A stretch of DNA of 64,000 nt. Source: Sabellastarte sp. h YS-2021. Lineage: Eukaryota > Annelida > Polychaeta > Sabellida > Sabellidae. Positions 859-31,914 of the stretch are shown one piece after another. The position numbers were made by a program, and so were the translations under genes. The stretch's first letter is position 1; every line of letters begins with the position of its first letter. The notes beneath the pieces were generated by a model. That model ran no database searches and was not told where the DNA came from. It saw nothing but the letters and a program-made list of their open reading frames with translations. The DNA is taken from contig OZ024936.1 in the NCBI GenBank assembly GCA_964017235.1, positions 94,648,537 through 94,712,536 on the forward strand. The letters run 5' to 3'.

Positions 859-968
859 CTCTTTGTCTACCTGACAGCGTAGCAGTATAGACAGACTGTG
901 ATTTGTTCCAACCAGAATTAAACGCGAAGCAATTTCCATACACAGCATCAAAGAATGGTTGAAAATCT
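859..968 (-). CDS. Channel exon 9: DEG/ENaC YGNCFAFNSG segment
   Basis: Acceptor TACACTTTCAG and donor AGAG|GTAAGA bound 110 nt (phase 2 to 1). It encodes DFQPFFDAVYGNCFAFNSGW, matching the family's Y-G-x-C-Y-T-F-N-S-G motif. This should be followed by the rest of the palm, the cysteine-rich thumb and TM2, none of which is in the window. It is the last visible exon of the gene. Confidence 0.88.
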
Positions 969-3900
969 CTGAAAGTGTAATAGAAACTTTGAGTTTAATT
1001 TCAGTTGTTTTCATTTATAACAAGTACACACTATGGATAATAGAACAATAAAACTAAGCTCTTTAATGACTTATAGTGTCTACTGCTTGATGTTGTAACT
1101 TATCTTAATTTGATGCAAAAAGGAAGACATACTATATCTATTTACATTTGGTTGTCCTGTGTAAAATTTATCCACCTCCAAATACCAAAATAAATATTGT
1201 GTCTCGACACAGTGTATCCCCAGATGGGACATGGTTGAAGCATGACATACAGAGTATTATGGTTGACACAAATATACCCCTGTGGGGAGAGGGCATAAGT
1301 GTTTATGGGAGCAACTTGTACTGACACTAAGTAAATAAAATGTTTGCTTAATGAAAGATACATATGTAATTAGATGTAATGCATCAGAGAACCGATGCAG
1401 ATATATCCACCAGAAAGAAAACTCGCCAATCAACCATCACTTAACCTTGAAGGAGGAGCCCAAGGTAAAATCTGACCACATCAAAAGATTCTTAGCCCAT
1501 GATTTCCAATAGGTTGGTGTGACATTGCAAACCTCTAGGAACATGAATAAGTGAGTTATAAGCACTTTTAAGTTGGCTATCCTTGTTTGACCTTGAAGGA
1601 GGAGTCCAAGGTCAAATCTGACCACACCAAAAAGTTCCCAGCCCATGATTTCCTATAGGTTGGTATAACATCCCAAACCTCTAGGACCAATAATAATCGA
1701 GTTATAAGCATTTTAAGTTTGGCTATCCTCATTTGACCTTGACGGAGGAGTCCAAGGTAAAATCTGACCACACCAGAAGATTCCCAGCCAATGATTTCCT
1801 ATAAGTTGGTTTATCATCCCAAACCTGTACTACCAATAATAAGTGAGTTATAGACACTTTTAAGTTTGTCTATCCTCGTTTGACCTTGAAGGAGGGGTCC
1901 AAGGTAAAATCTAACAATATCAAAAGAATCCGGGCCCACAATTTCCTATAAGTGGGTGTCACATTGCAAACCTCTAGGACCAATAATGAGCGAGTTATGA
2001 GCACTTTTAGGTTTTGCTATCCTTGTTTGACCTAGATATGATTTCCTATAGATTGGTTTTCCATCCAAAACCTCTTGGACCAATAATAAGGAAGATATAA
2101 GTACTTTTCATGACTGACAAAAAAACGCCCGTGGCGTCCATCTTGGTTTTCAAGATGAGGCCAAAAATATTTCCAGTCAAGATTTTGTAATGTGGAAGTC
2201 CTTGCTTTAAGTCGAATAAACGTCCTTGGCAGCCATCTTGTTTTTTTCAAAATGAGGCCAAAAATATCCCCATGCAAGATTTTATGGTTATGCATATATC
2301 CTGCAAATTTGTGAAGGCTAGATATAATATTTTTTGTTAGAGTGGTAACCTCCAAAGCTATTTTTATAGTTTCTATGCAATACAGTCAGCATTAAGTGTG
2401 AAAATATCAAAAATGGCCTCAGTGAGGTACTTTGGCGGTCTGCTGATGACCTTCAGTGAAGAGCCTCAAGGTCATATTTCTGCATGCTTACAGAGGACAT
2501 ACATATGTATTATATATACCAACCATAGGATGATCTGACTTTTTGTATATGAGGACTGGGCCAAAATGTGAAAAAATTTGACCTTTAATAGACCACCAGT
2601 GACCTTGAAATTGAAAGTCAAGGTCACAAAACAATAGTGTTCGCCCCATTGCCCATATATACCAAATTTGAAAGGTCTAACTGAAATATTTTTTAAGTTA
2701 TTGCGTCCAAAAGGAAATCTCTGAGGCGGCGGCAGTGTGACCGTACTGAATCCTAAGTATCCCGACTTTTGTCAGGGGATACAATAAGGAAGTTGAAGTG
2801 ATGCCAGAAATTAATTAAATGCATTTGAGCAATTGTGTCTTTATTTCCCAGTGTCCCTTGGTGTGGTTAAATTTTACCCATCTCACAGAAGCAAGTGCTG
2901 ATATTTTTAAGTCTGAGAGATTGTTTTTCATTAAAATCATTAGACAAAACCAAAATGTACATTTAACTAACATCACAGGGAAAAGAAAGGGGCAAATCAA
3001 ACATTAAATCTAAACTGACTAGCATATGTCACCAAAAGATGATATCTCTACAACAGAATTCACCAAGAATTAAACTGCTTCCAATTATTATATATATATA
3101 TTGGTTATACATTTATCTAAATAAATATAAAATATATACTTACTTAAAAAAGAAAGGCAATAATTTACTTACTTAAAAAGAAAGGCAATAATCTACAATA
3201 CATCTTGCATTTCTTTTTTTGGCTATGTATACATGCAAGTTATTATATGTTGTAAAGTAGTGCACAACGACGGGCTATAGGCACTACATTTTCTGAGAGT
3301 GATATTTTTTCAATGGAAAAAATCTTGTGAGAGAAAGTTTGAAAACCTGTAACGACTGGCAGTATTGACGTTATAAAATAGTGTCATACCTAAATATTAC
3401 TGATGTGAAACACAGTGGAAAATAGATATGGGCAAAAAACATTGCACACTCTATCTCTAACATTAGAGATTTATCACTAGAGAAGAAAATTGCACAATCA
3501 CCTAGCTTCTATATCATGGTGTATTCTGCCGTGATAATATTGCAGAAATTTGCACCGTTGGAGTAACTTGCCCATATGTCATTTGCCAGAAAAAGAATTA
3601 ATTAATAGAATTAATTTTCACCAATGGCTAGTTTCCACTTGAGATATTAATACAGGTTTAAAATTCCACAAGGAATTAAATTTTCCCTTCCAACCTCAGC
3701 TAAGATAGGAAAATTTGATGTCTGCTGAAAATTTCATTTTTTACAGTACTTACTAACAAAATATCATAAATATTCCAATGTGTGTACGCCAATAGACAAA
3801 TTAATCTGACTCACTTTTCAGAACACTCTTGCCCATTAAATGAACAATGCAACACAAATTCTGGATATTTATAGCCAAGGGATTGCCTCTCGTTGTCTGA

Positions 3901-6900
3901 AATCTCAGATATAATGCGGATGACATCCCCTTCTTTTGCAAAGTCTTCACGTAGAATTTCACTGTGAAAACAGTTCTAGTATATGTCATTTTGTCATGTT
4001 AATATATTCAAACACTGACATTTTTGTCATGACATTGATATTTATGTAAAGCATTTGGTTTTGTCAATATTTCCGCAAATGATGTAATCCCCTGGGGCCA
4101 GTTTCACAAAGGGTCTTACACTTAGCCATGTTTTTGGCTAAGTCAGGGACTTAAATCTAAGACTTTGGTCTTAGATAGGTCTAGGACTTAAATAGATTTC
4201 ACAAAGGGGGACTTAGCTATGTCCAAGCGTATAAAATAACCACAGTGGTTTTCTGTGTTGTGTGATATTTACAAATGGAAATGGAAAACCTTGTTACCAC
4301 ACAAAATCTTCCCAAAGACTACATTCTTTATACTTTATTTACAGACATTTCCAATTTTGAGAGAAATTTATGGCAGCCATAACTACGTTTTTGTTTAAAG
4401 GTGGACTTACTTTTGAGTCCCAAGACTTAGCCAAGGCTTTGTTTTTGCTGCTTTGTGACATCCATTTAGTCTAAGACGATAGACTTAGCATCCATTAAAG
4501 ACAAAAGTATTTAATTTTCAGTCTAAGTCCAGGCTAAGTCCTTTTGTGAAACCTGCCCCAGGTCGCACAATGTAGAGGGTCTTACCGTCATTTTGGAGAA
4601 TAAAAGAGAATACATGCAATTTTAAATTCACTAGAGGTAGGAAAGTGTGGTCGTATAGTGAAAAGAATTTCAGATTTCTACAATTATTTTAGACTGTCAA
4701 GAGATCAAGCCTCATCAAAGCACAATGATGCTGACTAACTGTCTAACTGCCAACTAGTGAAGACATCTGGCAAATTTCCTTCAGTGACCCTATGCATTAG
4801 CAAAAGTGGACAAAAGTGAATACAATCTGGAAAGACTCTTGTGTCAGAATGAAAGAATCTGTAGAAACCAAAGAAGAACATTCAGAATTTACTGATAACA
4901 AAAAATTAGTATAACTCATTGGCAACTATCCTATGATAGAGTTATGACATAACAGAACGTGCTACTCATTGTGACCCATCATCATGGGGAACTTAAAAGT
5001 TGACAAATACCTACAAGAGTTTGAAAATCAGGTTGTTGTGGGTATAGGGTGGCAAAAGATAAGGATGGTTGAAGACAACAGAGGAACAATGCAAAATATG
5101 AAAAGATTCTATATGCATCATTTGAAAGTACAAAGATTCTCGTTTTTATCTCATTAAAAATCTCTGCAGAAATGGGAGGAAATTTAAAGGAAAAAATCTG
5201 TCAACCATGTAATTCGGTCCAGTGATTGAACATAATCTGGGATGATCCATAAACAAACTTGTGTTAAGGTTATCTCAATTGTGTGAAGATAGAACTGCTA
5301 GGTTACACAAAAAAGATTCCAACTAAGTAAATTGAATTTTAATTGGATTTCAAGCTGAAACTAAGTAGATATTAAATGAATGAAATTTATGTTTACCCAT
5401 TTGGATTTAACAGCGCCTTTGCTTTCTGTGCAGTCGATTCCGTTGAATAAGAAAATACAGAAGTTCCCTCAATCAACGTTGATGTCTCATTCATCATTTG
5501 TGTAAGCATGCTTTCTTGTGTAATTGGAGAGCTAGTAGTGTTTGACTGGGCATAAAGTGCTGTGTCCAAACTTGTAGAGGTAGAGGTCTGTAGACTGCTT
5601 TGGATTTCTGTTACACTTGTACAGACTTCTTTTGTATGTTCAGTAGTGCCTTGATATCCGAATGTAGTTTCAGGTGATCCTAAAATGAAGTCGACAGGAT
5701 TAATGAACTTCAATTGAAGAAAGGTTAAAGTTAGACTTTTATTTACTGTTCAATAGCCAGGGCTGAATTTGGTATAAGCTTTAAAGTGTAACTACTTTTT
5801 TTAGTTAAACCCCGTGGTTAGATGCCAAAGATGCTAGTCATTAGACCACTTAGTACCTGGATTTAGTTTTCGTTGAATGTTGGGATATGTAATAAATTAA
5901 GTGTAACTAATAAAGCTTATCAGCACAAAAGTAGGCTTTGGCTTTCATTGATATTTTTCTGTAATTGGCCCTTAATAAAATCAATAGTTTTATATCAAGC
6001 AACCACCATGATTTGAATTGTTTTGGATATGTTATATCTTGAGAATGATATATACAGGGGGGACAGCGATTGGCAGGGGACAGCGATTCGCCAATTTCTA
6101 TTGTACCTCATTTAAAACTAACATCTGTGTTGATACTGAAGGAGCCTTATAGCATAGAAAATTGTGCAACATGTCTTGATACTTTTCTAAGATTTTATAA
6201 AGATGAATAAAAAAGTTTATATGTCAGTCAGAAATATGCCTAACAAACTGCATCTGACTGATGCAAAGGGCTGTATGTTGTCTAAACTGTGCCTGGGGTC
6301 AATATAAATACTATTTATGACTTCATTAAGTGTTAGAATACAAAAAGAAGAATTGATCTTTAGCTTTAATTATTGTTTACAAAGTGTTTAACAGTCTTTG
6401 TAACTTTTTGGGGAACAGTATAAAATAATCGGCGAAATGCTGTCCACTATCCAACAGCCCTAATCTTATTCCCATGGGACAAGTTCTATGGTTGTATTTG
6501 CATTTATCACAAAATATATTTTATGATGCAACTATCATTTTACAGTTTGAGGAACCTCTTTTCATTCTGATAACTTTTATAAAACCACACTGCATATTTG
6601 GTCTCAGGAAACTGCATTTTGCTGTTTTTATGGGCGAATCGCTGTTCCCCCCTGTATGTTATCCAAGTAACACTAACAAGAATTATCAACACCTGAATTT
6701 GTCATCACAACTACTTGTCGAATGAAATAAGCTTCATCCACTTATATCACAGGTTATGGTAACTGTCTTCATATATACCTGGTGTACACCTCATTTCCAC
6801 TGTTCTAGTTTGCCCACTGAGTGTACTTATTATCTAGAACCTCACATGATCATTATGGTCATTCTCTCCAGCCATTGCTTTTAATCCAAAACTATCTCTC

Positions 6901-9900
6901 TCTCAGAAACCAGAGTGTATTTGGCCCATTGTGTACCAACACACTACTTTACCTCATACTCTAAGTTGTATCTTCTGATAAATATGCTTAAAATATTTAT
7001 AACAATATGTATTTATATATCATATATATGTATTGTATTTATGTATATACGTGTGTGATCAATACAGACATATTAATATAACAATTGTAAAATGTAGTTT
7101 TTGGCAAATTCCCACCATTCTTTGCAGTTTCTATGATGGTGACTTTTTGAGAGGATGTGTTATCTCAACAATCATTACCTCAATTTTTATACACTGTTAT
7201 AACCATTTCCTGTGAGCATTCCCGCCTCAAGTAATTACAACTAATGGTTTTGCTCATAAGTCGCTCACATAAGTCGCTTCTTGTGGAACTGTTGAACAAA
7301 AGTGACCTTTGAAAAAGAAAACTCATTCCACAATAACTTAATTGCAGAGGTGAGCTAGAGCAGATTCATAGATAGAGTGGTTCTGCTCTTTTTTCTACAG
7401 GACTAATCTGAGAAGACTTCCAAGTTATGAATAGGCACACTCCTCGAATAAGCCACATGTATTAGACGAGGGTTTATCTCTTTTGAACTTCCTCTTACAA
7501 TTATTTCACATGGTTCTTTGCTTGGTCATAAGCCTCAAGTGATTAGGCTTGTGTGTTTTCATTTGTGGATCATTGTGGCACAGTCCTCTCCATGTCACGA
7601 TAGGACACAATTAGTACAATTTTGGTAGGACAATTTGAACACAGCTTGGATAGCAATTTGCATTTGGTTCAACTTTTTTTCAAAATATTCAAAAACCTAC
7701 TACAACATCTCACAAGCTATACATAAATATACAATGTAGAGGGATGAGGAGTACCAGGAAGCATAAACGCATATACCATGTGACTCTCTTTTTGGAACTA
7801 TAAGGATGATGTTGGAAGCAGAACCTGTAGAAACTCATCATCCCAGCAAAGAAAGTAGTGACTTAGGTAATGCCAGAATTTACTCATCCATAATCTATTC
7901 TCAAATTCGATTGAAGAGAAGAAATGCCAATCTTACCATTTGTTTCATACGTACAGAGAGGATGTAAACCAGATATGACTCCATTGTTGTTGTGAATCCC
8001 ATCGCAATGAACATTTCTCCATGCGGGCTCACCTGATTCATGTGAAACATACACACACTTCTTGTTTAAATCTGTTGGAGGAGTTCCTGCAATCAGACAT
8101 AAATTCACATGTTCTGTCATATGAAAACTAATCTGGAGAAAACAGGAAAACTTGCTAAATGACATAAACCAATATATCTGGAATGAATGACACCAATAGC
8201 TTTCAAAAATTCAGTATGAAGCTCTCTGCCCTTAATCATCCATAATTGCACCTTGTTTGATCATTTGTGTAGCTTTTCTAGTTTCTTTCACCCATATTCT
8301 GTGTCTGTCTCTTTCTGTGTCTTCAGTCAAGTTTTTGTTGATCGGGAAACATTATTTTAATAGCAAAATCATAGCTACAGGCTTTGACCTGACTTTTGTA
8401 AGCAATGCAGCAATTCCTGCTGGAATCCTAAAAGAGTGGGAGAAAGTTTGAAAAAATAGGATAATACACTGATTTGCTGTAAAACTCCATCACTGAGGAA
8501 AGGCACACTTTATTAAAAAGTGTCAATGCATTACCTGGATCACTCTCCCAGTTACTCCAGCTGAGATCCTCAGAATCAGCCCACTGCCAGGTGCCTGTAA
8601 CTTCATTGTACTTCAGGTCAAGCCACACTGGCCTGGAGCTGTCCAAACAAGAAATTACTAACACAGACAGACACAAGTTGGGGCATTTCACATGCAATAT
8701 GAACAAGGCTGAAAGGGGTTTTGGTCTACTAGCAGGAGCTGTAAAGCCATCCGAAAGAACAAGTAGTGCACTGAAGCAGTCACCCATTCCAGTACTAACG
8801 CAGCCCATTGCCGCTTAAGTTCAAAGAACAGACAGACACTCATCACACTATGCCACAATTTATGAAAGTCCGGAGACAAAAAACAATGAAAAAAGAGATC
8901 TGTTAAAAAATATCCAAGTGGTACATAATTTAAAAATTCATCACAAATAATAATATCACATAATAATAATTTTAAAAGGTCAATATTAACTGTATCAGGT
9001 ATGCAGAAAATTAGCTATGAACTAAATATACAATCTTAAATTTATAACTAGAAATTTCTCTGCCATATTTGAATAGGAAATGCAATAAAAAGAGCAAAGT
9101 TCTGTATCCTATTTAATACTACCACATACTTTTATAGTGTTTAATCTCTTCAAAGGCACACACCCTAAGTATAACACCAGAAACCAATTGAATATCATTA
9201 TACATAACCAGGTTGATATCATTGAGACACCGGGTACTTTTTGTTTTGAGGGTGCAAAGCATATTTAAAGAGATAAGATTTAGCCTTCTCATGAAACAGG
9301 CAAGAGAGAGCAGAATAAACATAAGTCCAAACTGAGAGAGCATCAAAATTGAAACTGTGACCAATGTGTTTTGGCTGTATGTATAGATGGGCAGAATTCA
9401 TTGTGTTACATATATTGGACACTATATTAGTACATTGTATATTACATATATTAGGCACTATATTAGTGCATTGTTTAATTTAAGCTTTATGTTTATAAAT
9501 TGTCATAAAAGATAATTGTGTTGTTGGTTCTTTTTGTGTGTTAACATTTAAAGTAAGGGAGTTATTGATTTTTGTGTTTTAGTGTTTATTGATCTGTTCA
9601 CAGTCTGGGGGAAATCCCCCCTCAGTGGTTATGTTAGATTTGGGGAAACCCAATTGCCAGTAGTTTCTAGAACTTCCTCATTTGGCCTAGATGGCTCAAT
9701 CTTCCTTTGAGTTGGTTCTGTACAATTCCAGAGGAATCTGTGAATGTATATAAGGAATGTACATCTGACCACAAGTGAACTTTGTATTCGCTTGCTATAA
9801 GGAGAGCTATTGTGTTTTGGAGTATACAAAGGTCAAAGTTGGGGTTTTACGTCCCGTTCAACAGCCAGGGTCATATTGGGACAGGTCCTCAGAATTACCA

Positions 9901-18900: not shown

Positions 18901-21900
18901 TCTCTTCTACTACTGGCCTCAACTGGGGTTCGGTTCCCGGCACGGCTTCAAGTGAGAAAGCTGGTAGTTGCTTGCCGTTGGTCGGCAGTTTACAGTACAC
19001 AACCCTGATGAACTGTATGTACTGGTTTCCTCTGTACTTCCAACTACCCGTCGTGATATGACCTGTACAGTGTTGAAAGCGACGTAAAACTCCAAATAAA
19101 TAAATAAAATACTACTGGCCTCTAAGTGCCAATTGACTCATCCCTACAGCAGCCAAAGTTCTACCTACTGACATTTCCATAACAAATATCAACAGTCTCT
19201 TAAACTCCCTTTGTCCCTGTTGTTCTTTTATCTGCAATTGGGGATAGGTTCAAACTTATTTGGTGCTATGACAAACCTTTTCACTTTTTTCACTTTAAGG
19301 TTTTTGTGAGTGCATGTTTAAAAACTTTTGAGTAACCCATTCTCCCAGAATTACTTGGGTTTTTTTCAAGTGTTTATGGCCAATATCTTCAGTACTTCTA
19401 TCTTGACAACTGTTTTCATTACATTAACTTTCCTAGCACTACTGACAAATCATATTATGATAGTTTTGTCACAAATTTATAACAGAATCAGTCAAACCAC
19501 ACACACCCTTGACCATAGTCCTGGGTTTAAAACAGAAAGACTGTATAGTTAAATGCAAAAGTGGAACAGTTGCATCAGTCCTATCTTCTAATATTATAGT
19601 GGCTCTGACCTTGTCAATTGTATTGGTTCCAGGAAGATGTGATTAAACTTCTCGACAGTGTCCACCACAGCTAAACTGGCACCCTCTGATTCACAGCGCT
19701 GCTTGGCCTCAACCTGCGAAAGCTTGTCAGTGTTTTCTCTCCAGAAGCACACTTGGGATACTGGTTCTACAGGATTGGGGCAACTGTCTGCAGATATTGT
19801 ACATAATACAAGTTGCTACTGCTCCCTGACATGATTTTATTTTTGTTAGAAGTGTAGTAACATCGATTTATTATCACTAAAATGTGGATTGATACAAGCA
19901 CAAACAATCATTTTAATGAGTTATATTTATCTTCAAAATAATTTGTAAAGACTAATCATTCAGTAGAATTGTAGGAAATGTATACCTGTGTTTTTATCAC
20001 TGGATCTACTTGTGTAATACCAATAATTTTGACAACAATAACTCCTGGCCACAAAATAGACTTAATTGGTTTTGATTTAAAATTTACATGTCTTTTCAAC
20101 ATTTTATGTGGCTCGTATTGGAAGAAACAAGTGCATGTTAATAGGTAAAAATTGTACTTATACACTATTGGGGTCACAGGGCTGTTTTATAAAGGGTCTC
20201 ATTCATGGACTTAAATCTGATGTACTTTATATTGATTCAGGTGGTCCAGTTCTAAAGTGGATTTCACAAAGTTTGAGCTAAGACCAAGCTAAGATCAAGC
20301 TAAGACTGAGTTGTCAATTAACTACACTGGTGTCATGGGACCCTTTATTTCATTTTTAAATACACGTACTGTACAGTTTGACATATGTCCTATGCTTGAC
20401 TTATTTTTTTCTGTTTTAAAAATGTACAATGCAGCAATGAAAAACCTTGTAACAACATAAAACAATTTTCAGATACTACTTTAATAGGTGCTCTGTGTAT
20501 TTATACTTTTTTTCCAGATATTTCAAATTTATGGTGGTGGCTAAACGGCAATTAACTTTATGCCAAAGACTTTAAGTCTAAGCCTGAGCTTCGTATTTTG
20601 TGAAATTGACCAAATAAAAAGCCACATGATTAGAGATGGGACATGACCACACTGCCATGGCTCCTGTATTTTGAAGAAAAATATTTGTGGTCATACTCAC
20701 CCCTCTTACTCCTCTTCCTCCTCCTTCCTTTTTCACTTTGCCAGCTAGCTACAAGTGCCTCCATCCGCGGACTGTGGGTGAGTTCTGACATCTTCACTGG
20801 GTTTGTGTTACAAATGCTGATAGCAGGAAAGGCCAACTCCTTGGAGTCTTGTATGGCTCTTTTCACATACACCTGAAGGATGAATACAGTATATTTTAAG
20901 GTACCATAATGCATGGTTGGACATAGGCTACATAAAATCACATTTGGAAAACTAAAGTCAGATCTTCCCCTTCTGCGGAAAGTACTGGATGCATGGAGCT
21001 ACTGTATAAGTAATAACTTTAGCTGGAACAATATGTCATTGATTCAATTATTGCCCAGTGAAAATGTCAACTTAAACAGTTTTCTTTCAACATTCAATCA
21101 ATTGGTCATTCTTTGTGATATTTAGATATTTAGTAAATTTAAAATAGGCAGTTAAGCCCAGCACGGCTGCATACCATAGTCTATCTGATTATTTAAAGAG
21201 AAATGAATATTTGATTTTCAAATCTGTTTCTTTCTTTAACTTTGTGCTAAAGGGCCCTGTGCGTGAAACATGATGCATGTACCAACATAAGTACTACTAC
21301 TAATTTGATTTCATTTATTTAGTTTGACTATTGCTTTCAACACTTTTTGTAGGTTATATCATGATGGGTAGTTTTAAGGAAAGACGAAACCAGTACATAT
21401 TGATGGGTCAAGGTTTTGTACTGTAAACTGTTTGGCATCGGTAATCGAGTAACCACTTTGTCACATAGGGTCTAGAGTTTGCACCACTGACCTCAGGAGG
21501 CAAGTCTGTTAACCAGTTCAAAAGCACACCCCCATGCTTACCCTTTGAACGAAACCTTATGAATATTCTGACATAGGTACTGCAGGGAAAACAACATGTG
21601 CAATGAATCTGAAGTCTATATATTAATATTTGATCACCTAAACCAATATACACCTGTAATTAAATAAAATAACGTATTTTTGTTGATGTTACTGTGGTCA
21701 ATTCTGTGTAATTACATTTTGCAGCTGTTCTTTTGTAAAAAATATTGGTAGATTTTTACTCATGCATATTTTGCTAAATGTTTTGTAAAATGTATTCTGT
21801 TATGCCAAAGTTGGACAAGACATCTGTCAAGCAAAATGACGTGACATGTCTTTGAATATGAATACATCATCTTGCGGCTTAGCTTAAGAAAGCTATATCA

Positions 21901-27900: not shown

Positions 27901-30900
27901 AGATTCCAATGGCAAAGGTTTATACACTTCTAAACAACTATCAGGTAAAACATCTTCATCAACTAACTGTTCAACAATAAGCCTTTTAAGTTCATGTTTA
28001 CGTGTTGACCTTTTCACCTCTAACTGTAACTCTTGTGCTATCTGCACTAACATATCTTTTTTAAAAGTTTCTAGAACTTCCATAGATGGTGACTGTACAA
28101 ACTCTTTAGCACTAGCCATTTTGACCACTGTTGACTGTAACCAATTACTAAATCAAATGGATTTTCAAAATGTTAATTGAGCAGTTGATCAAATGGTTGT
28201 AATCAAATGGTTGGATCCCGGACGAGCCCCCAATTTTCCTGTTACGGTCACGGGCAAGCACGGTAGCAATTACCGGTTGTCTTTAAGTTGTAACAGAAAA
28301 AGCAAAAAGTTGAACTTAACAAATTTATTTAATAGTCAACAATAATGATTACAGTCAACTGGTATGCTCTTAACTAAACACACTAACACAATAATAAGAT
28401 CTAGCTGACCTGACCACAGAGATTATGAGTTAAATTTATCCGCCGTATCCAGCAATCTGTTCCGTAATCCGTCCTGTATATGTTCTGTGGTCTGTCCAAT
28501 GTCCTGTGGTCTGTCCTGTGATCTGTCCAATGTTCACTCACACACAGATATCTATATCTTGTGACCTGTCTCACACTCAACAACACAAAAGGTTCTTGTC
28601 CTGCTATTCTTTATATATCCAGTCACACAGAATGTCTGTCTGGAGATATTTAGAGAGTTAACACAACTGTACTGTCTGCTCCAAGATGTGGACAATGTCC
28701 AAAATGCAGTAAATTCACTCTCTGCTATATGAATGTACAATATCCAAAATATCCAAAGTACAATAAATCTACCCAGACAATGTATTCAGTTCACTCCAGT
28801 GAGAGTTCACAGTAATATAAGCATATATTATATTCCAAAAAGTAATAGCTCTCCTTATAGCCAGCGAATACAAAGTTCACTTGTGGCCAGATGTACCTTC
28901 CTTATATACATTCACAGATTCCTCTGGAATTGTACAGAACCAACTCAAAAGAAGATTGAGCCATCTAGGCCAAATGAGGAAGTTCTAGAAACTACTGGTA
29001 ATTGGGTTTCCCCAAATCTAACATAACCACTGAGGGGGGGATTTCCCCCAGTCTGTGAACAAATCAATAAACACTAAAACACAAAAATCAATAACTCCCT
29101 TACTTTAAATGTTAACACACAAAAAGAACCAACAACACAATTATCTTTTATGACAATGTATAAACATAAAGCTTAAATTAAACAATGCACTAATATAGTG
29201 CCTAATATATGTAATATACAATGTACTAATATAGTGTCCAATATATGTAACACTCAGACACCGTACTGCATAATATACCACAGTGCTCCTAAGCCTCTGG
29301 GACCATAAAATAAGTTCATGTTTGAAGTGAATTACTCTAAATTAATTGTATTGATAATGAATGAAGAGAAGTTAACTCACAACCAGATTTGAGCTGAGCC
29401 AGATTCTCCTGGAATAATGACTAGAGTCACATAACAGTTCAACAAGATCGTCATCATAAAAAGTAACCAGTTGAACCATCCTTAAAATATGACCAAAAAT
29501 TCAGCTTACAACAGTTGAAATTGATTTTATCTCGAATTAATGACCTGAAGATCACTTCCATACGGTTGAATCAGATTTTCATCGTAACAAAATTATCAGC
29601 AAATAAACATTAAAGAGTTGTCTCAGATTTTCAAAACCATTTCAGGTTTTTATTTTAGTGACACTGTAATGTCACCTTATTCCATGTGACAATGCCATAA
29701 ATCATTTCACTTCAGAATATGCCATAATTTTAGATAGACACATACCAGAAATCCTAGATAAGAATTTGTGATTGCATAAGCATTGTAGCTTAGGCCAGCC
29801 GTACAGCATAAAAACAGCAGCAACCACACAACCAGCTTGATGTAACCTGCAAGAAGAAACAAATACACTACTGAAGCCTACCTATACCAACTAATATTGA
29901 GCAATTTCAATGCGTGTGTAATTGATTGTATGACCTAGTTGTTTCTCACTTAGGGTGTTTTATCCAACAAGTGACAATGCTGAGGATCTGTCCCAATATG
30001 ACCCTGGTTGTTGAATGGGATGTAAAAACCCATCTTTGACCTTAGGGTGTTTTATGATTGCTGCTATGAAGCAGGAATACTGAAAAATATACTTATTTGT
30101 CTCAAGAGAAAGATAAGATCAATAAGATGCCTTTATGGCCTTCCCTTGCCACTGTCACTACTACAATTCATGAAGATTGGTTGGAGGACTTGAGGTCCCA
30201 CTTACTTATGGGGAGGAATCAACACAGTTGTTCAATTTGATTTTTTGTTTTTTGGAGGGGGGGGGGGCAGGAAAAGTTGGGTCAATTTCCACAGGAAGAC
30301 TAGCCTCTCAAATTGATTGGTCGTAAGACAGTTGTGACTGAAAAGATCGATCAGGGTACTCAGGACAGAAAAGCTTAACATATTCACATGTCCGCAATAT
30401 TTTTAATTCTAACAGTATTTTTATAGCGCTTAATCTCCATCTAAAGACAGACTCTAGGCGCACCAAACAGAAGCAGGAAACTATAATCATAAACCTGAGA
30501 CATAGCAAGGGTCAGCACCATGGAGAGAGACCAGGGAGAGCAAAAGTTAGGGTGGATATGCTTGTGCAAAGAGATAGGTTTTGAGCTTCCTTCTGAATGA
30601 GTGGAGAGAAGTGGCCGAACGTACATCATCAGGCAAATCATAATAGAACAATAGCCACAATAATGTGCAAAAGCGCACACAAATGTAAAGACTGGAAGAA
30701 CAAATGACAAGATTGTTCTTCTGACCGCAAACTTGTGGTAATGGATGGCCACCTCACAACAGAGGAGTGGGCTTATAAAGGCCAATTGTAAACAAGAAGT
30801 CCTTTTAAGTAAACATGGTGTGTCATACATACATGAATATATACATTGTTATTAATTCAGCTACCCTAAATATAATTGTTTAATTCCCTTTAGGCAGCCT

Positions 30901-31914
30901 CAGAAATATGAAGAAAAATATACCCAATTGACATGTTTTTGGTTGTTGTTTTTTTTTTGTTTTTTTTTGGGGGGGGGGGGGGGGGGGTTATCATAAGAGC
31001 AGACAAATTATTGCAATATGAATGCCCCGAGGGAAGTATGTTGTGTCTTATCACGAGTTAGTACACTTAACAAGAGTTACCTGTATTATCTAAATCCGAG
31101 CAAATGAAATAGTTCATTAACTACCAACAAAATTGCACTTTCGTAGCTTTGTGTTTATTTTTTCATCAATTTAATGAATCATCAAATGATCAAGATTGAA
31201 TCAATCGAGGGGTCAGTAGCGCAGTGTTATAGAACTTTGGCACTTACCTTGGTCCAAAGTAGTTCTTGGTTTTTAATTCTGTTCATGGAATCTTTTGAGA
31301 TACACTGATGTGGTTTTTAGTAGTTTGAAAGGACATTATTTATAAAGACCGGAAGTGACCAGACCACACAAAACAATGCAGTGCGCATATTTTTGCGTAC
31401 ATTTATCTGAGGCATTAAATGGACGATCACCGATAATGGAGAACCAAACGATACACGCAAAATATAGTGCGACAACTAGGTGTGTATAACAACATATTTA
31501 CAATAACATTTATGGATTAATAAAAGAAACCGGTCTTTATAATAGAAATAAAGTCCCCAGGTTCATACTTTATGACCTCTATAAAAAGACTGAACTTCCT
31601 TTTACAGAGGTCATAAAGTACTCACCCTCGGACTTTATTTCTACATTAAAGCCAAATCTTGGGCTTATTTTAAATCAGGCTTCCAAGAGCACGCCACAAC
31701 TCCCAGAATCTTGGACTACATCACTAAGATAAATCATAATTCACTTACTGGTAGTCCTGCCTAAATGTTGTACACCATGCACTGTGGAGTGTCTACAAAA
31801 CTGTGGGATGATTTCTCTGAATCCAAATCCTTGTGTAATGTATTCACTCTTCGTATAGTAACATTTTGCAACCATCTTCCAAATTGCTGGTGTAACTTTT
31901 GGGTTATCAGTCAT
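859..31914 (-). CDS. DEG/ENaC channel subunit with embedded C-type lectin domain (gene span, 3' end outside window)
   Basis: Spliced gene read from the minus strand. Exons: 31914-31749, 29846-29746, 20872-20701, 19787-19610, 8638-8535, 8086-7937, 5679-5397, 3961-3815, 968-859, about 470 codons. Phases at the eight junctions (1,0,1,2,1,1,2,2) agree on both sides, every intron is GT-AG, and there are no internal stops. Predicted layout: cytosolic N-terminus with His46-Gly47; TM1 about 58-80; FPAISICN at 104-111; polybasic RRRKRSKR at 139-146; C-type lectin domain 149-288; Ser/Thr-rich stalk 292-384; DEG/ENaC extracellular core from 386. TM2 and the C-terminus lie beyond the left edge. By family this is a plasma-membrane, trimeric, amiloride-class sodium channel subunit. 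The ligand and gating stimulus are not readable from sequence. Exons and domains are seen directly; the single transcript is inferred from strand, order and phase. Confidence 0.85.
1440..2110. repeat. Satellite-like tandem repeat, about 146-bp unit, 4.5 copies
   Basis: The phrase ACCTTGAAGGAGG or a close variant recurs at 1444, 1590, 1736 and 1883, and a broken copy starts at 2030, giving a period of 146-147 bp. Short open frames here are repeats of each other, not genes. A reverse-oriented relative occurs at 57305-57625. Confidence 0.87.
2111..2790. repeat. Degenerate repeat with paired sub-repeats
   Basis: Two sub-repeats built around GGC(G/A)(T/G)CCATCTTG and AGATGAGGCCAAAAATAT follow the satellite at about 2130 and 2228. 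Short phrases such as GACCTTGAA and AAGGTCA recur to 2650. The block ends near a small palindrome, TATCCCGACTTTTGTCAGGGGATA (2759-2782), written here only for its symmetry arms TATCCC/GGGATA. It is probably the rest of the mobile unit that carries the satellite; the class is unknown. Confidence 0.45.
3815..3961 (-). CDS. Channel exon 8: DEG/ENaC extracellular core
   Basis: Acceptor TGTTTTCACAG and donor AAAA|GTGAGT bound 147 nt (phase 2 to 2). It encodes EILREDFAKEGDVIRIISE, then YPEFVLHCSFNGQECSEK. The C-x-F-N-G-x-x-C pattern is a strong DEG/ENaC signature and in the family follows the finger domain. The true reading frame differs from the longest open frame here, and splicing phase decides between them. 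Confidence 0.87.
4091..4562. mobile_element. MITE with CTGGGGC-type inverted ends
   Basis: The left end CTGGGGCCAGTTTCACAAAG and the right end TTTTGTGAAACCTGCCCCAG are inverted repeats of about 20 bp. The interior repeats short words of the type GACTTA/TAAGTC on both strands. No coding capacity. A decayed relative lies at 20172-20612. In intron 7-8 of the channel gene. Confidence 0.7.
5397..5679 (-). CDS. Channel exon 7: Ser/Thr-rich stalk
   Basis: Acceptor TTCATTTTAG and donor ATGG|GTAAAC bound 283 nt (phase 1 to 2). About 94 residues rich in Ser and Thr with possible N-glycosylation sites (NTT, NET) and one cysteine. It looks like a mucin-like spacer; no known fold is recognised. It is the exon that moves the phase from the lectin cassette (1) to the channel core (2), so it seems required for the reading frame. 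Confidence 0.72.
5745..5862 (-). mobile_element. Decayed SINE (same family as the one in LTR A)
   Basis: On the minus strand a tRNA-like head (TGGTCTAATGACTAGCATC, then GGCATCTAACCA) is followed by the tail remnant of the TTGAACAGCCAGGG type. The middle of the element is missing. Alignment is by eye against 9827-9980. Confidence 0.5.
6055..6654. mobile_element. 600-bp MITE with TA target duplication
   Basis: Left end CAGGGGGGACAGCGATT and right end AATCGCTGTTCCCCCCTG are inverted repeats. Each side is flanked by TA (6053-6054 and 6655-6656), as for Tc1/mariner-type elements. The left end contains a second, nested copy of the terminus (GGCAGGGGACAGCGATTCGCC). No coding capacity. In intron 6 of the channel gene. 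Confidence 0.78.
6657..7936. other. Intron 6 remainder, no gene seen
   Basis: AT-rich sequence with a short TA-rich stretch near 7010-7040. No splice-bounded coding segment, RNA or clear repeat was found. Confidence 0.5.
7937..8086 (-). CDS. Channel exon 6: C-terminal half of C-type lectin domain
   Basis: Acceptor TCTGATTGCAG and donor AATG|GTAAGA bound 150 nt (phase 1 to 1). It carries KKCVYV, AWRNVHCDG and PLCTYE, the last three canonical cysteines (251, 268, 285). Predicted disulfides are 149-160, 178-285 and 251-268. The calcium-site WND motif is replaced by WRN. Confidence 0.88.
8535..8638 (-). CDS. Channel exon 5: middle of C-type lectin domain (WIGL-like core)
   Basis: Acceptor TTTGGACAG and donor CCAG|GTAATG bound 104 nt (phase 2 to 1). 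It encodes VWLDLKYNEVTGTWQWADSE, in which WLDL stands for the conserved WIGL core, followed by LSWSNWESDP. The usual EPN or QPD sugar-selectivity triad is absent (ESDPGTP at that place). It is separated from exon 4 by an 11-kb intron containing retroelement A. Confidence 0.88.
9120..9400 (-). mobile_element. Probable LINE 3' fragment
   Basis: On the minus strand the end resembles the 3' UTR of the CR1/L2-like family at 42.5 kb: short words like GAGATTAAACACTATAAAAGT close to the end. Strongly diverged. Element A begins immediately to its right. Confidence 0.35.
9747..9754 (+). promoter_or_regulatory. LTR TATA box
   Basis: TATATAAG inside the 5' LTR, repeated at the equivalent place in the 3' LTR (14486-14493) and, inverted, at 28901-28908 in element B. 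Confidence 0.6.
9827..9980 (-). mobile_element. SINE inserted in the 5' LTR of element A
   Basis: Flanked by a perfect 13-bp duplication GTTTTGGAGTATA (9814-9826 and 9981-9993), and absent from the 3' LTR. On the minus strand it has a tRNA-like head (box A TGGCCTAGTGGTTAG, box B GGTTCGAGTCCC) and a tail containing TGTTGAACGGGACGTAAAAC, which resembles the tail of the SINE at 1-220. It must have arrived after element A. Confidence 0.93.
10591..10608 (+). promoter_or_regulatory. Primer binding site, tRNA-Pro type (element A)
   Basis: TGGGGGCTCGTCCGGGAT lies 7 nt after the 5' LTR. It is complementary to the 3' end of animal tRNA-Pro, the same primer used by some gammaretroviruses. The same site occurs in element B. 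Confidence 0.9.
10704..12277 (+). pseudogene. gag-protease region of element A (broken)
   Basis: From MASAKEF at 10704 to a stop at 11198, then a second open stretch at 11207-12277 in another frame. The break is a 46-nt deletion relative to copy B at about 11162, with a 3-nt microhomology. Parts in order: an N-terminal SAP-like helix pair, a charged Glu/Lys/Arg-rich coiled coil (shorter than in B), capsid-like sequence, a CX2CX4HX4C zinc knuckle (about 11800-11843, CHYCKKPGH), and a retropepsin motif DTGA near 12040. The frame fails again near 12235, just downstream of protease. By family it forms the particle and processes the polyprotein; this copy cannot. Confidence 0.85.
12241..13839 (+). 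pseudogene. Integrase of element A (active-site mutant)
   Basis: Contains the HHCC zinc domain (HLGINKTYNKITKHFYWP, then CKTCHIC) and the DDE core. The first Asp (IIDCVG) and the Glu (ALERFHSTLK) are present, but the second catalytic Asp is Tyr (QSYQGSNF; copy B has QSDQGSNF). The C-terminal 60 residues are much more divergent from the full-length type in copy B than the rest, yet still end in MVKPYFERG. Translation stops there and no RT follows. Inactive as integrase; it could still be mobilised in trans only if another copy supplies enzymes. Confidence 0.88.
13840..14141 (+). other. 3' non-coding tail of element A and polypurine tract
   Basis: About 75 nt follow the integrase stop, then a short stretch homologous to the RNase H end and 3' UTR of copy B (from about 13920). 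AAGGGGTGAGG at 14131-14141 abuts the 3' LTR and is the likely plus-strand primer. The RT and RNase H block present in B is missing here. Confidence 0.75.
14142..15155 (+). repeat. 3' LTR of element A
   Basis: 1014 bp, TGTTAC...GTAACA ends. It lacks the SINE found in the 5' copy. The small open frame inside (14600-14842) recurs in all LTRs because they are recent copies and is not taken as a gene. Confidence 0.92.
16481..16582. repeat. About 40-bp inverted repeat (hairpin)
   Basis: Left arm 16481-16520 and right arm 16541-16582 are near-perfect reverse complements (core AACCACGGTATACGCAGAAT) around a 20-nt loop. It has the look of a very small foldback element. Confidence 0.8.
16640..16735 (+). 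repeat. Interspersed repeat fragment, also at 53290-53385
   Basis: Shares TTTTTTTATC, GGATCAAC.TTGAG.AAG and AATAACCCC-type words in the same order with 53290-53385. Family unknown. Confidence 0.45.
18921..19109 (+). mobile_element. 5'-truncated SINE, family 1
   Basis: Flanked by a 13-bp duplication TACTACTGGCCTC (18908-18920 and 19110-19122). It keeps box B (GGTTCGGTTCCC) and the body and tail (GAAAGCGACGTAAAAC, AAATAAATAAATAAA) but has lost box A, so it inserted already truncated. Confidence 0.9.
19610..19787 (-). CDS. Channel exon 4: N-terminal half of C-type lectin domain
   Basis: Acceptor ATATCTGCAG and donor AAG|GTCAGA bound 178 nt (phase 1 to 2). It encodes CPNPVEPVSQVCFW and then AKQRCESEGASLAVVDT. 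The first two cysteines (149, 160) mark the long-form C-type lectin fold; C178 and the GASLAVV strand match the family core. It lies 0.9 kb after exon 3 with matching phase. Confidence 0.88.
20172..20612. mobile_element. Decayed MITE, relative of 4091-4562
   Basis: The ends resemble GGGCTGTTTTATAAAGGGTCT and, inverted, TTTTGTGAAATTGACC. The centre shares GAAAAACCTTGTAACAACA and TTTATACTTTTTTTCCAG-like words with the first copy. In intron 3. Confidence 0.5.
20701..20872 (-). CDS. Channel exon 3: first palm strand and polybasic site
   Basis: Acceptor ATCCTTCAG and donor GGG|GTGAGT bound 172 nt (phase 0 to 1). It encodes the DEG/ENaC hallmark LAFPAISICNTNPVK (residues 102-116), then a short helix-like stretch and a very basic end, GRRRKRSKR, whose last residue is R146. 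RRKR and RSKR both fit the furin consensus R-X-K/R-R. ENaC alpha and gamma subunits are activated by furin in the finger domain, so a processing site here is plausible but unproven. The next codon is completed by the lectin exon. Confidence 0.87.
22097..22971 (-). repeat. 3' LTR of element B (138-bp deletion)
   Basis: 875 bp versus 1013 bp in the 5' LTR. The missing block corresponds to about 29003-29140 and is flanked by AATT microhomology. Ends TGTTAC...GTAACA intact. Confidence 0.92.
23153..23602 (-). pseudogene. RNase H domain of element B
   Basis: In the same frame as RT but separated by a stop codon (TAA at about 23605-23603). It contains GAGAVLLQ, the EKECLALILAI helix, VYTDHNPL and the terminal ADALSR motif typical of Ty3/gypsy RNase H. 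The stop at a position where the family usually has a charged or polar residue suggests one nonsense change. Immediately followed by the element's 3' UTR and polypurine tract AAGGGGGGAGG next to the LTR. Confidence 0.85.
23603..24965 (-). pseudogene. Integrase C-terminus plus reverse transcriptase of element B
   Basis: Begins with a second copy of the integrase C-terminal region (KACELAQQNLKNSQSKMK; GPYKVLKRVGDLDYI; MVKPYFERG), then a linker, then RT: SSWASPCVLVPKPDGSIRYC, the aspartate of KCDLLKGY, FGMKNSQATFQRLM and the catalytic YVDD (VYVDDIVIFSDTWEEHLKRL). RT motifs look intact. The segment is out of frame with the upstream gag-INT frame, so no single polyprotein can be read. Start of the segment is the recombination point at 24965/24966. 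Confidence 0.9.
24868..25163 (-). repeat. Internal 98-bp direct repeat at a recombination junction
   Basis: About 98 bp of the integrase C-terminus (24868-24965) is repeated at 25066-25163, offset 198 bp. The intervening sequence (24966-25065) matches the divergent integrase tail of element A up to GACCATTAAA, then jumps to AAGGCTTGTGAGC. This marks a switch from an A-like to a full-length-type template. Confidence 0.87.
25036..28119 (-). CDS. gag-protease-integrase polyprotein of element B
   Basis: One open frame of 1027 residues from ATG at 28119. In order: SAP-like N-terminus; Glu/Gln/Lys coiled coil with a 9-residue repeat EAQQRKEEL; capsid-like region (WPTDQWPLLLQ, TDFEKLRQVI); zinc knuckle C-X2-C-X4-H-X4-C with V where the usual Gly stands (CKKPVH); retropepsin DTGATQSLLL; integrase HHCC and DDE with D-X35-E spacing, all three acidic residues present (IDCVG, SDQGSNF, ALERF). 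It ends early at GGKASGPNE* after a frame shift in the A-like integrase tail. Structural and integration functions by family; fused RT is lost. Confidence 0.92.
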   Translation of the reverse strand: MASAKEFVQSPSMEVLETFKKDMLVQIAQELQLEVKRSTRKHELKRLIVEQLVDEDVLPDSCLEVYKPLPLESSGQFEIRRLEIERELKLREFEARERELEAQQWKEELEAQQRKEELEAQQRKEELEAQQRKEELEAHAQKEERALKHEREMRALELNARRIAHKESIATKFDLGKNVRLVPPFNELEVDKYFQHFERVAQNLKWPTDQWPLLLQSVLRGKAQEAYTALPISECVDYNSVKNAILKAYELVPEAYRQKFRNYRKQESQTHVEFAHEKEVYFDRWCNSREISTDFEKLRQVILIEEFKRCVRDDIKTYLDEQKVENLAKAAAYADDYALTHKSTFNKNKSFGPAKKSYPEIGKKSENVAPEKSSDEGQTSNQTMSKDRKPRSFAPVCHYCKKPVHVMSDCWLLKKRREKEATPNAFVSSKSNWRSNPNRAESSIGLDKSEIIREEFKPFVSEGFVSLESSSSQVPIKILRDTGATQSLLLEGVLPLSVSTSTGESVIAQGIEGGCVNVPLHKVKLVSDLVTGSVGVGTRPTLPIKGVSLLLGNYLAGGKVVADPKVTSKPITLVSTEKLEEVIPGIFPSCAVTRAMAKKAQEEPKDCKQSTDVLVDLSDTFLNNYDHDVQNSSDTNPKARVDSEKQDSIDCQDVSLSKSKLISEQENDPELAPLFKLVLPPVELDKVPVGYYVRNGVLMQKWRPPNVPASEEWSVVHQIVVPKMYQSEILKLAHESPMGGHLGINKTYNKITKHFYWPQIRHCVAEFCKTCHICQMVGKPNQKIPVAPLKPIPAFEEPFSKVIIDCVGPLPKTKSRNQYLLTIMCASTRFPEAIPLTNITAPQISKALVNFFTLVGLPKEIQSDQGSNFMSGLFQQVVFQLGAKQIKSSAYHPESQGALERFHSTLKNMIRTYCLDNEKDWDEGISLLLFAVRESVQESLGFSPFELVFGHSVRGPLKLLKENWLSENTESLNLLDYVSKFRDKLKKACELAQQNLKNSQSKMKMLYDKKLQNRIFNPGGKASGPNE
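27700..27830 (-). repeat. 27-bp coding minisatellite in gag
   Basis: Four near-identical 27-bp units encode EAQQRKEEL (first unit has W for R). Element A has a shorter, altered version in the same place, so the coiled coil varies in length between copies. Confidence 0.85.
28215..28232 (-). promoter_or_regulatory. Primer binding site, tRNA-Pro type (element B)
   Basis: Reverse complement of the site in element A (TGGGGGCTCGTCCGGGAT), 7 nt inside the 5' LTR. Confidence 0.92.
28240..29252 (-). repeat. 5' LTR of element B
   Basis: 1013 bp, TGTTAC/GTAACA ends, TATA box at 28901-28908. Only a handful of differences from the 3' copy outside its deletion, so a recent insertion. Confidence 0.93.
29746..29846 (-). 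CDS. Channel exon 2: first transmembrane helix
   Basis: Acceptor CTTCTTGCAG and donor CTG|GTATGTG bound 101 nt (phase 1 to 0). It encodes YIKLVVWLLLFLCCTAGLSY, a hydrophobic helix starting with a charged residue, at the place where DEG/ENaC proteins have TM1 (about residues 58-80). It directly follows the His-Gly exon and precedes FPAISICN, as in the family. Confidence 0.85.
29965..30046 (+). mobile_element. SINE 3' half
   Basis: CCCAATATGACCCTGG, then TTGTTGAATGGGATGTAAAA and a CTTTGACCTT end match the tail of the SINE in LTR A. Head missing. In intron 1 of the channel gene. Confidence 0.65.
30405..30800 (-). mobile_element. 5'-truncated CR1/L2-like LINE, 3' end
   Basis: On the minus strand one frame ends in SFRRKLKTYLFAQAYPP and a stop, close to the C-terminus of the LINE at 42.6 kb, then a 3' UTR ending GGAGATTAAGCGCTATAAAA. 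The RT part is frameshifted. In intron 1. Confidence 0.75.
30946..30987. repeat. Homopolymer tracts (T then G)
   Basis: A T-rich run is followed directly by about 19 G at 30969-30987. Length uncertain in sequencing. A shorter G run is at 30257-30267. Confidence 0.75.
31205..31285 (+). mobile_element. Possible tRNA-like SINE head
   Basis: GGTCAGTAGCGCAGTG resembles box A; a box B-like GGTTTTTAATTCTG follows 55 nt later. No clear tail. Confidence 0.3.
31337..31643. repeat. Two adjacent inverted repeats, MITE-like
   Basis: A pair TTATAAAGACCGG (31339-31351) and CCGGTCTTTATAA (31530-31542) is followed at once by a 38-bp hairpin, arms 31543-31580 and 31606-31643 (AGAAATAAAGTCC on one side, GGACTTTATTTCT on the other). 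Located less than 120 bp from exon 1 of the channel gene, in intron 1. Confidence 0.7.
31749..31914 (-). CDS. Channel exon 1: start codon and cytosolic N-terminus
   Basis: Reads from ATG at 31914-31912 (an alternative in-frame ATG at 31875 has a better context) to the donor A|GTAAGTG. The residues FCRHSTVHGVQHLG contain the conserved DEG/ENaC His-Gly pair just before TM1, a gating element of this family. The exon ends in phase 1, which fits the next exon. An AG near 31833 could instead be a splice acceptor, in which case the real start is further upstream. The end of the exon is secure; the start is less so. Confidence 0.72.

Follow-up and report, generated by a model that had tools for sequence, protein, structure and literature searches.

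The locus analyzed here raises the question of whether a single gene of Sabellastarte sp. h YS-2021 encodes a DEG/ENaC channel subunit with a C-type lectin-like domain set into its extracellular part and, if so, what a lectin fold at that place might do. The window, the whole stretch of 64,000 nucleotides that was analyzed, is C14:94648537-94712536 of a 1.786-Gb assembly, on a contig (C14) of 99.7 Mb. A sequence-only reading of the window had proposed nine minus-strand exons running from a His-Gly motif and TM1 through a lectin domain and a Ser/Thr-rich stalk back into channel sequence, free of stops and with eight matching phases. All nine exons could be rebuilt in that order with AG/GT borders at every one, and joined they leave 1411 nt open (470 aa), with junction phases 1,0,1,2,1,1,2,2. 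The features of this gene, referred to here as gene A, within the window are the following; genes B to E are paralogues in the same genome.

31749..31914, minus strand: exon 1, cytosolic N-terminus with the His-Gly motif QFCRHSTVHGVQHLGRT
29746..29846, minus strand: exon 2, TM1 YIKLVVWLLLFLCCTAGLSYNAYAITNSYLGFL; also in genes B and C
20701..20872, minus strand: exon 3, first part of the ectodomain with FPAISICN and, by alignment, finger helix alpha-1; polybasic end, donor in phase 1
20702..20725, minus strand: furin-type polybasic site RRRKRSKR, directly preceding the lectin domain
19610..19787, minus strand: exon 4, N-terminal half of the C-type lectin-like domain, entered in phase 1; matched in B, C and E
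8535..8638, minus strand: exon 5, lectin domain, WLDL...WQWADSEDLSWSNW; matched in B, C, D and E
7937..8086, minus strand: exon 6, C-terminal end of the lectin domain, left in phase 1, lacking EPN, QPD and WND; matched in B, C, D and E
5397..5679, minus strand: exon 7, Ser/Thr-rich stalk, phase 1 in and 2 out
3815..3961, minus strand: exon 8, ectodomain picks up again, LGYKYPEFVLHCSFNGQEC
859..968, minus strand: exon 9, YGNCFAFNSG; the gene continues to the left of the window

The start of gene A is either M1 or M14, the latter aligning with the M taken as the start of gene B. Exon 2 came from a scan for an open, hydrophobic exon with the required phases; six of the 12 rows were overlapping variants of this exon, of which the one with the acceptor richest in pyrimidines was chosen. 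The stalk encoded by exon 7 has 36 S or T among its 94 residues and two sequons, N337 and N354.

The joined 470-aa part matched the Pfam families ASC (4.8e-26, in two stretches, with the N-terminal part covering ASC positions 1-107) and Lectin_C (7.1e-10, above cut-off). When exon groups were scanned alone, exons 1-3, 4-6, and 8-9 were each above cut-off, corresponding to ASC positions 1-97, Lectin_C positions 3-98 of 107, and ASC positions 134-188, respectively; exon 7 scanned alone in Pfam matched no family. In the 64-kb window, neither tRNA scans nor Rfam at gathering scores returned anything. Among the repeats in the introns are a tandem array of four copies of a 146-bp unit (window 1444-2033, intron 8) and two copies of a gypsy-type retroelement on opposite strands (window 9982-13761, intron 4, and 24966-28840, intron 2) that are 94.6% identical over 3887 bp.

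The gene does not stop at exon 9. Seven further exons follow on the same strand, 5-26 kb to the left of the window, and the suggestion that TM2 would be reached by extending leftward was borne out, with TM2 in exon 16. These exons (loci L009-L011) lie at the following window positions, negative numbers being to the left.

-5185..-5348, minus strand: exon 10
-7067..-7174, minus strand: exon 11
-17522..-17654, minus strand: exon 12
-21023..-21095, minus strand: exon 13
-22872..-22929, minus strand: exon 14
-23909..-24058, minus strand: exon 15
-26004..-26486, minus strand: exon 16, TM2

Homology with eight single-exon DEG/ENaC frames from this genome, and with paralogue B, led to exons 10-16. 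Their splice sites, like those of gene B, were selected by reference to the other copy and to the phases, and the exon-11 acceptor of A is the second best by a simple splice score. The complete model of gene A has 16 exons and 859 aa. DEG/ENaC channels are trimers that conduct an amiloride-sensitive cation current, and a His-Gly motif and a G-x-S filter in TM2 are motifs of the family. The gene A product has the His-Gly motif (STVHGVQHLG), TM1 (exon 2), a cysteine-rich ectodomain, and a TM2 that holds GLWLGCSVFSLLEILE with a G-C-S filter. At full length, ASC (PF00858) is matched at 3.4e-79 in A and 2.1e-86 in B, in two stretches each, the better stretch spanning positions 128-454 of 455. Lectin_C is matched at 1.8e-9 in the same full-length gene A protein, and Pfam at E up to 1 gave only ASC and Lectin_C for proteins A and B. 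The cytosolic tails encoded by exon 16 of both also have NPAY and RRRST motifs, of the type found at endocytosis and kinase sites. It is nearly certain, judged from sequence, that the predicted product is a full ENaC-like subunit whose finger carries, after a furin-type site, a lectin-like domain followed by a mucin-like stalk.

Could the lectin nevertheless belong to a second gene? A secreted lectin-mucin gene might lie within an intron of an ENaC gene, or unrelated exons might have been joined in the model, as the long introns (up to 10.97 kb) and the absence of a family match for exon 7 would allow. The phases argue against this. Exons 4-7 total 715 nt (1 mod 3), and joining exon 3 directly to exon 8 shifts the frame. 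Thus, a transcript in which exons 1-3 join exons 8-9 without exons 4-7, the observation that the sequence-only reading held to count against it, could not encode a channel. To keep the frame, exons 6 and 8 must be separated by a 1-mod-3 exon, and exon 7 is one, with its 283 nt. Furthermore, the 913-bp intron 3 offers three first-exon candidates for a separate lectin gene, one of them signal-like, with a poor donor. The strongest evidence that this alternative is very improbable is that the same interleaving is repeated elsewhere in the genome.

The ENaC-lectin-ENaC order was found in six genes on four contigs: A, B, and C (C14), E (C1), F (C19), and G (C4). Gene B, a tandem copy 56-101 kb to the left of the window, was modelled with 16 exons and 965 aa, and its phases equal those of gene A at all 15 introns. 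This equality is partly by choice, in that sites were chosen with A in view; the best-scoring B sites give A's phase except for the exon-15 acceptor, for which the second best was used, and exon 7 of B was found only by a scan requiring phase 1 in and 2 out. That exon is Thr-rich and mucin-like (82 of 171 residues S or T), longer than its counterpart in A and in the same place. Gene C, also in tandem and to the left of B, shows exons 1-6, 8, and 9 arranged in this same order. The remaining genes are unlinked: gene E has exon 3, a lectin over two exons, and exon 8; gene F has exon 3, one lectin exon, and exons 8 and 9; and gene G has exon 3, the N-half of the lectin, and exons 8 and 9.

Two more genes show the order only in part. 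Gene D, to the right, has channel exons 8 and 9 preceded by lectin exons 5 and 6, and its N-terminal part was not found in the genome-wide exon search, in which 90 of 217 candidates were scored. Gene H, unlinked on C20, has exons 2-3 and then a lectin exon; its remaining exons were not found in the genome-wide lists, in one of which 150 of 305 candidates were scored. The channel exons of H match those of A at E about 0.004-0.005 only, and its short exon-3 piece matches no Pfam family. Lectin_C (PF00059) is above cut-off in B (6.2e-7), E (5.3e-11), and H (7.3e-14). The single lectin exons of F (0.011) and G (0.018) are below cut-off. In the G exon, Urotensin_II (0.009, also below its cut-off) ranks before Lectin_C, and in the genome lectin search gene G was matched at E 0.37. 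Because these lectin matches are weak, the assignment of F and G leans on position besides similarity.

Eight loci have an exon-3 match together with an exon-8 or exon-9 match, and among the matches listed a lectin match lies between them in six. The other two are a gene designated J and C21:11.264-11.273 Mb, the latter as matches only. These counts are lower bounds for the exon search, with its 90 of 217 candidates scored, as for the lectin search, in which all 38 of 38 were scored. The whole genome (G000) holds at least 101 ASC matches, several of them in tandem groups of long open frames, from a list in which 93 of 534 candidates were scored; this is a large DEG/ENaC set. Identity between A and E is 45% in exon 3, 49 and 43% in the lectin, and 40% in exon 8, and that between A and F is 43, 41, and 53% in exon 3, the lectin, and exon 8. 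Lectin identity thus tracks channel identity, as expected if the two were fused before the duplications among A, E, and F.

The paralogues also bear on an assembly error, in which intron repeats would have brought together fragments of two genes, one for an ENaC and one for a lectin. Introns 1, 2, 4, and 8 do hold sequence repeated elsewhere in the window. However, introns 3, 5, 6, and 7, which lie at or within the module borders, have no match elsewhere in the window (the comparison being within the window), the same order recurs in B, C, and E, and the contig is 99.7 Mb long; such an error is extremely improbable. Both interleaved genes and misassembly were rejected in view of the phases, of the junction introns that are repeat free within the window, and chiefly of the paralogues.

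The sequence-only reading had placed the lectin where DEG/ENaC proteins carry the finger domain. This holds in that the alignment puts the insert within the finger, after helix alpha-1; it does not hold for the finger as a whole, which is not replaced. The insert is flanked by ASC positions 97 and 134, which by alignment places it between finger alpha-1 and alpha-2. The ENaC alpha, beta, and gamma subunits likewise have an insert after finger alpha-1 with a furin-type site at its start, and the lectin and stalk of gene A appear to occupy the place of this GRIP insert. The two inserts differ in kind: that of ENaC is a small strand domain, whereas that of gene A is a C-type lectin-like domain plus a mucin-like stalk. 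They also differ in the number of furin-type clusters, of which there is one in gene A and there are two in ENaC alpha and in gene J. In inserts of the ENaC type, a protease site stands on either side of the inhibitory tract. Passages in PMC6197857 place the GRIP insert between helices alpha-1 and alpha-2 of the finger, describe sites for furin and other proteases there, and propose that removal of the insert shifts finger and thumb.

How the lectin may have come to this position is suggested by its exon structure and by the lectin-less relative.

C4:88325601-88329900 (locus L044): gene J, lectin-less relative

Exons 4-6 of gene A total 432 nt and are entered and left in phase 1, a symmetric 1-1 module, so that skipping of the lectin alone keeps the frame. 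A symmetric 1-1 module in a phase-1 intron is a signature of exon shuffling. Exon 3 of gene J closes with a polybasic stretch and a phase-1 border, the next homologous exon starts in phase 1, and no lectin-like frame was seen in the 0.9 kb between them. Because a phase-1 intron exists at the same polybasic loop in this lectin-less gene, the lectin has the appearance of a 1-1 module of exons that was shuffled into a phase-1 intron at the GRIP position. On this reading, the lectin-less state would presumably be the older. Gene J also has two tandem versions of exon 9 (at about 88328704 and 88329740) with splice-site-like borders, which are possibly mutually exclusive.

All seven lectin-ENaC genes read (A, B, C, E, F, G, and H) have an R-x-[KR]-R motif close to where the exon-3 frame ends, gene D's exon 3 being outside this count. 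The site is at the splice donor in A, B, E, F, and G; it was seen in C as translation only, and the donor of H is unfixed. In contrast, none of the eight DEG/ENaC frames with a single exon from this genome (L001-L008) has the motif in the 220 residues scanned, starting 40 residues past the His-Gly motif. Seven K or R in eight residues, as in gene A, arose in one of 20000 shuffles of its 470-aa part. Gene J has two furin-type sites five residues apart, the second of which, RSKR, opens the exon after exon 3. Since the lectin-less J has the site too, the furin-type site, on sequence criteria, is a mark of the multi-exon branch and not of the lectin itself. Gene E (L034, C1:64052201-64058200), which keeps the lectin and the furin-type site, is without both cysteines of CxFNGxxC, having SSMYNGREL instead. 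With those cysteines lost, not all members need be normal channels.

Among solved chains, full-length protein A scored best against ENaC beta (196 bits), with 133 bits for the FaNaC (7yvb) and 130 bits for ASIC2. The FaNaC was the best DEG/ENaC match for the in-window part, and membership in the FaNaC group, which that part hinted at, was not upheld by the full protein (133 versus 196 bits). The 470-aa part, which is what was scored, gave 104.5 bits against the NCBIfam model TIGR00859 (ENaC), for which 428 are needed, and 124.9 bits against TIGR00867 (deg-1), for which 598.45 are needed. FaNaCs, which are FMRFamide-gated sodium channels, resemble gene A in their DEG/ENaC fold and in having a ligand that acts on the finger, and they differ in that the corresponding segment is about 32 residues in the 7yvb chain versus about 278 in A, lectin and stalk included. 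According to passages in PMC11026163, FaNaC1 binds FMRFamide between the finger helices, the outer corner of the finger is important for gating throughout the superfamily, matrix tethers have been proposed, and finger residues align poorly even within FaNaCs.

Other channels carry extra extracellular domains. The Caenorhabditis elegans proteins EGAS-1 to -4 are DEG/ENaC proteins with an added domain, given as "EGF plus ASC" in part of PMC10424705. The added domain there is EGF, whereas A and B have a lectin and no EGF match in Pfam. Polycystin-1/polycystin-2 is similar in having a C-type lectin domain in the ectodomain of a channel complex, the channel being of the unrelated TRP type. Polycystin-1 differs in having GAIN/GPS self-cleavage, PKD, and REJ domains, none of which is matched in A or B (Pfam). 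As reported in sections of PMC7728438, its lectin domain is essential for channel activation, also within a free fragment, and is removed by proteolysis. A DEG/ENaC channel with a lectin was not found described in an open-licence library, most subscription papers and animal protein databases being out of reach. A large protein collection yielded no lectin-ENaC relative, and no animal protein surfaced from it, so that result is uninformative for other animals. Bacterial, archaeal, and viral contigs, equally uninformative for other animals, also yielded no relative, and none of 18 pattern-matching stretches in genome contigs was confirmed. A DEG/ENaC protein with an added domain (EGAS) and a lectin in a channel complex (polycystin-1) are both known already.

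The overall explanation that we prefer, with a probability of about 0.5, is that a furin-cut, stalked head would sense or tether a partner and thereby gate an ENaC-like channel, as read from the domain order and by analogy with the channels above. Furin would cut ahead of the lectin during export, leaving the lectin as the free N-terminal head of the larger chain. This head would be held on the mucin-like stalk, which is joined to the finger helices, and would bind a protein or glycoprotein partner on the matrix, in mucus, on another cell, or on a neighbouring subunit. Pull on or displacement of the stalk would then move the finger and alter channel opening, as happens on ligand binding in FaNaC and, it is proposed, on loss of the GRIP segment in ENaC.

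The same GRIP position and furin-type site would also suit a lectin and stalk that act as a removable plug. After the furin cut, a second extracellular cut in or after the stalk would shed the lectin, and the channel would open more, on the model of GRIP removal in ENaC; the shed lectin would perhaps be a signal, like the N-terminal fragment of polycystin-1. The two sites of the lectin-less J, five residues apart, fit such an arrangement, and lectin fragments of polycystin-1 are described in part of PMC7728438 as acting in solution. However, the 470-aa part of A has no second R-x-[KR]-R (only furin-type sites were sought, and ENaC gamma has other protease sites), and the lectin is conserved like the channel, beyond what a plug would need. 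A plug therefore seems rather unlikely.

That conservation is evident from Nei-Gojobori counts of dN/dS between genes A and B. Over the 143 codons of the lectin the ratio is 0.165, the two channel parts have 0.199 and 0.184, and the tail has 0.189; the lectin is under purifying selection. The stalk has a dN/dS of 0.419 and 33% identity, in a region where the alignment is poor. The poor conservation of exon 7 and its lack of a family match count against the head as a gating element, and a gating role for the lectin head falls just short of an even chance. Synonymous divergence is roughly doubled in the lectin exons (dS 1.34, against 0.60-0.70 in the channel exons on either side), and gene conversion within the channel parts might be a reason.

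The lectin of gene A has a W-rich core and six cysteines (149, 160, 178, 251, 268, and 285), six being the long form of the C-type lectin-like domain. EPN or QPD together with WND are the motifs of canonical calcium-dependent sugar binding, and a search for EPN, QPD, and WND in the gene A lectin found none. By eye, no sugar motif set is present in the C-half of the lectin in B, D, E, F, or H, the last having KPD without WND. Sugars, which the sequence-only reading had named among the possible ligands, are unsupported as stated there, with EPN/QPD and WND missing in A, B, D, E, F, and H. These missing motifs also lower the odds of a sugar-gated channel. The sequence SDPG[TA]P after the lectin core is common to A, B, E, and F. 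The closest solved chains to the lectin are LY75, the mannose receptors, and their kin, so that the mannose receptor family (LY75, MRC1, MRC2, and PLA2R) provides the nearest solved lectin-like domains. In that family the domains form arrays on receptors, not channels.

With the canonical sugar motifs missing, the head might bind a partner subunit or a matrix protein. It may thus serve subunit assembly, sorting, or cell adhesion instead of gating, with protons, peptides, or shear working the gate. The NPAY and RRRST motifs in the A and B tails hint at other regulation. Against a head that takes no part in gating is its insertion in the finger, a moving part during gating of known members, and we regard that alternative as unlikely. 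The preferred reading, a stalked head that gates, may amount to a new gating design for DEG/ENaC channels, in which a furin-freed, mucin-stalked head of lectin fold would sit at the place of the inhibitory tract, and binding or pull would open or shut a sodium channel. We propose this design tentatively, as possible but doubtful.

If the gating head is real, gene A would represent a second, independent ion channel controlled by a lectin domain, besides polycystin-1, and its paralogues would form a sensor family spread over several contigs of this genome. The finger helices vary strongly among DEG/ENaC proteins and are a site of peptide, protease, and perhaps matrix action, as parts of PMC11026163 and PMC6197857 describe. 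A binding module plugged into the finger would be a natural chimera for the question of how finger movement opens the pore, and it would bear equally on whether tethers pull DEG/ENaC channels open. The evolutionary step would also be visible in this genome, in a relative that lacks the module, shares the intron phase at that place, and carries furin-type sites there.
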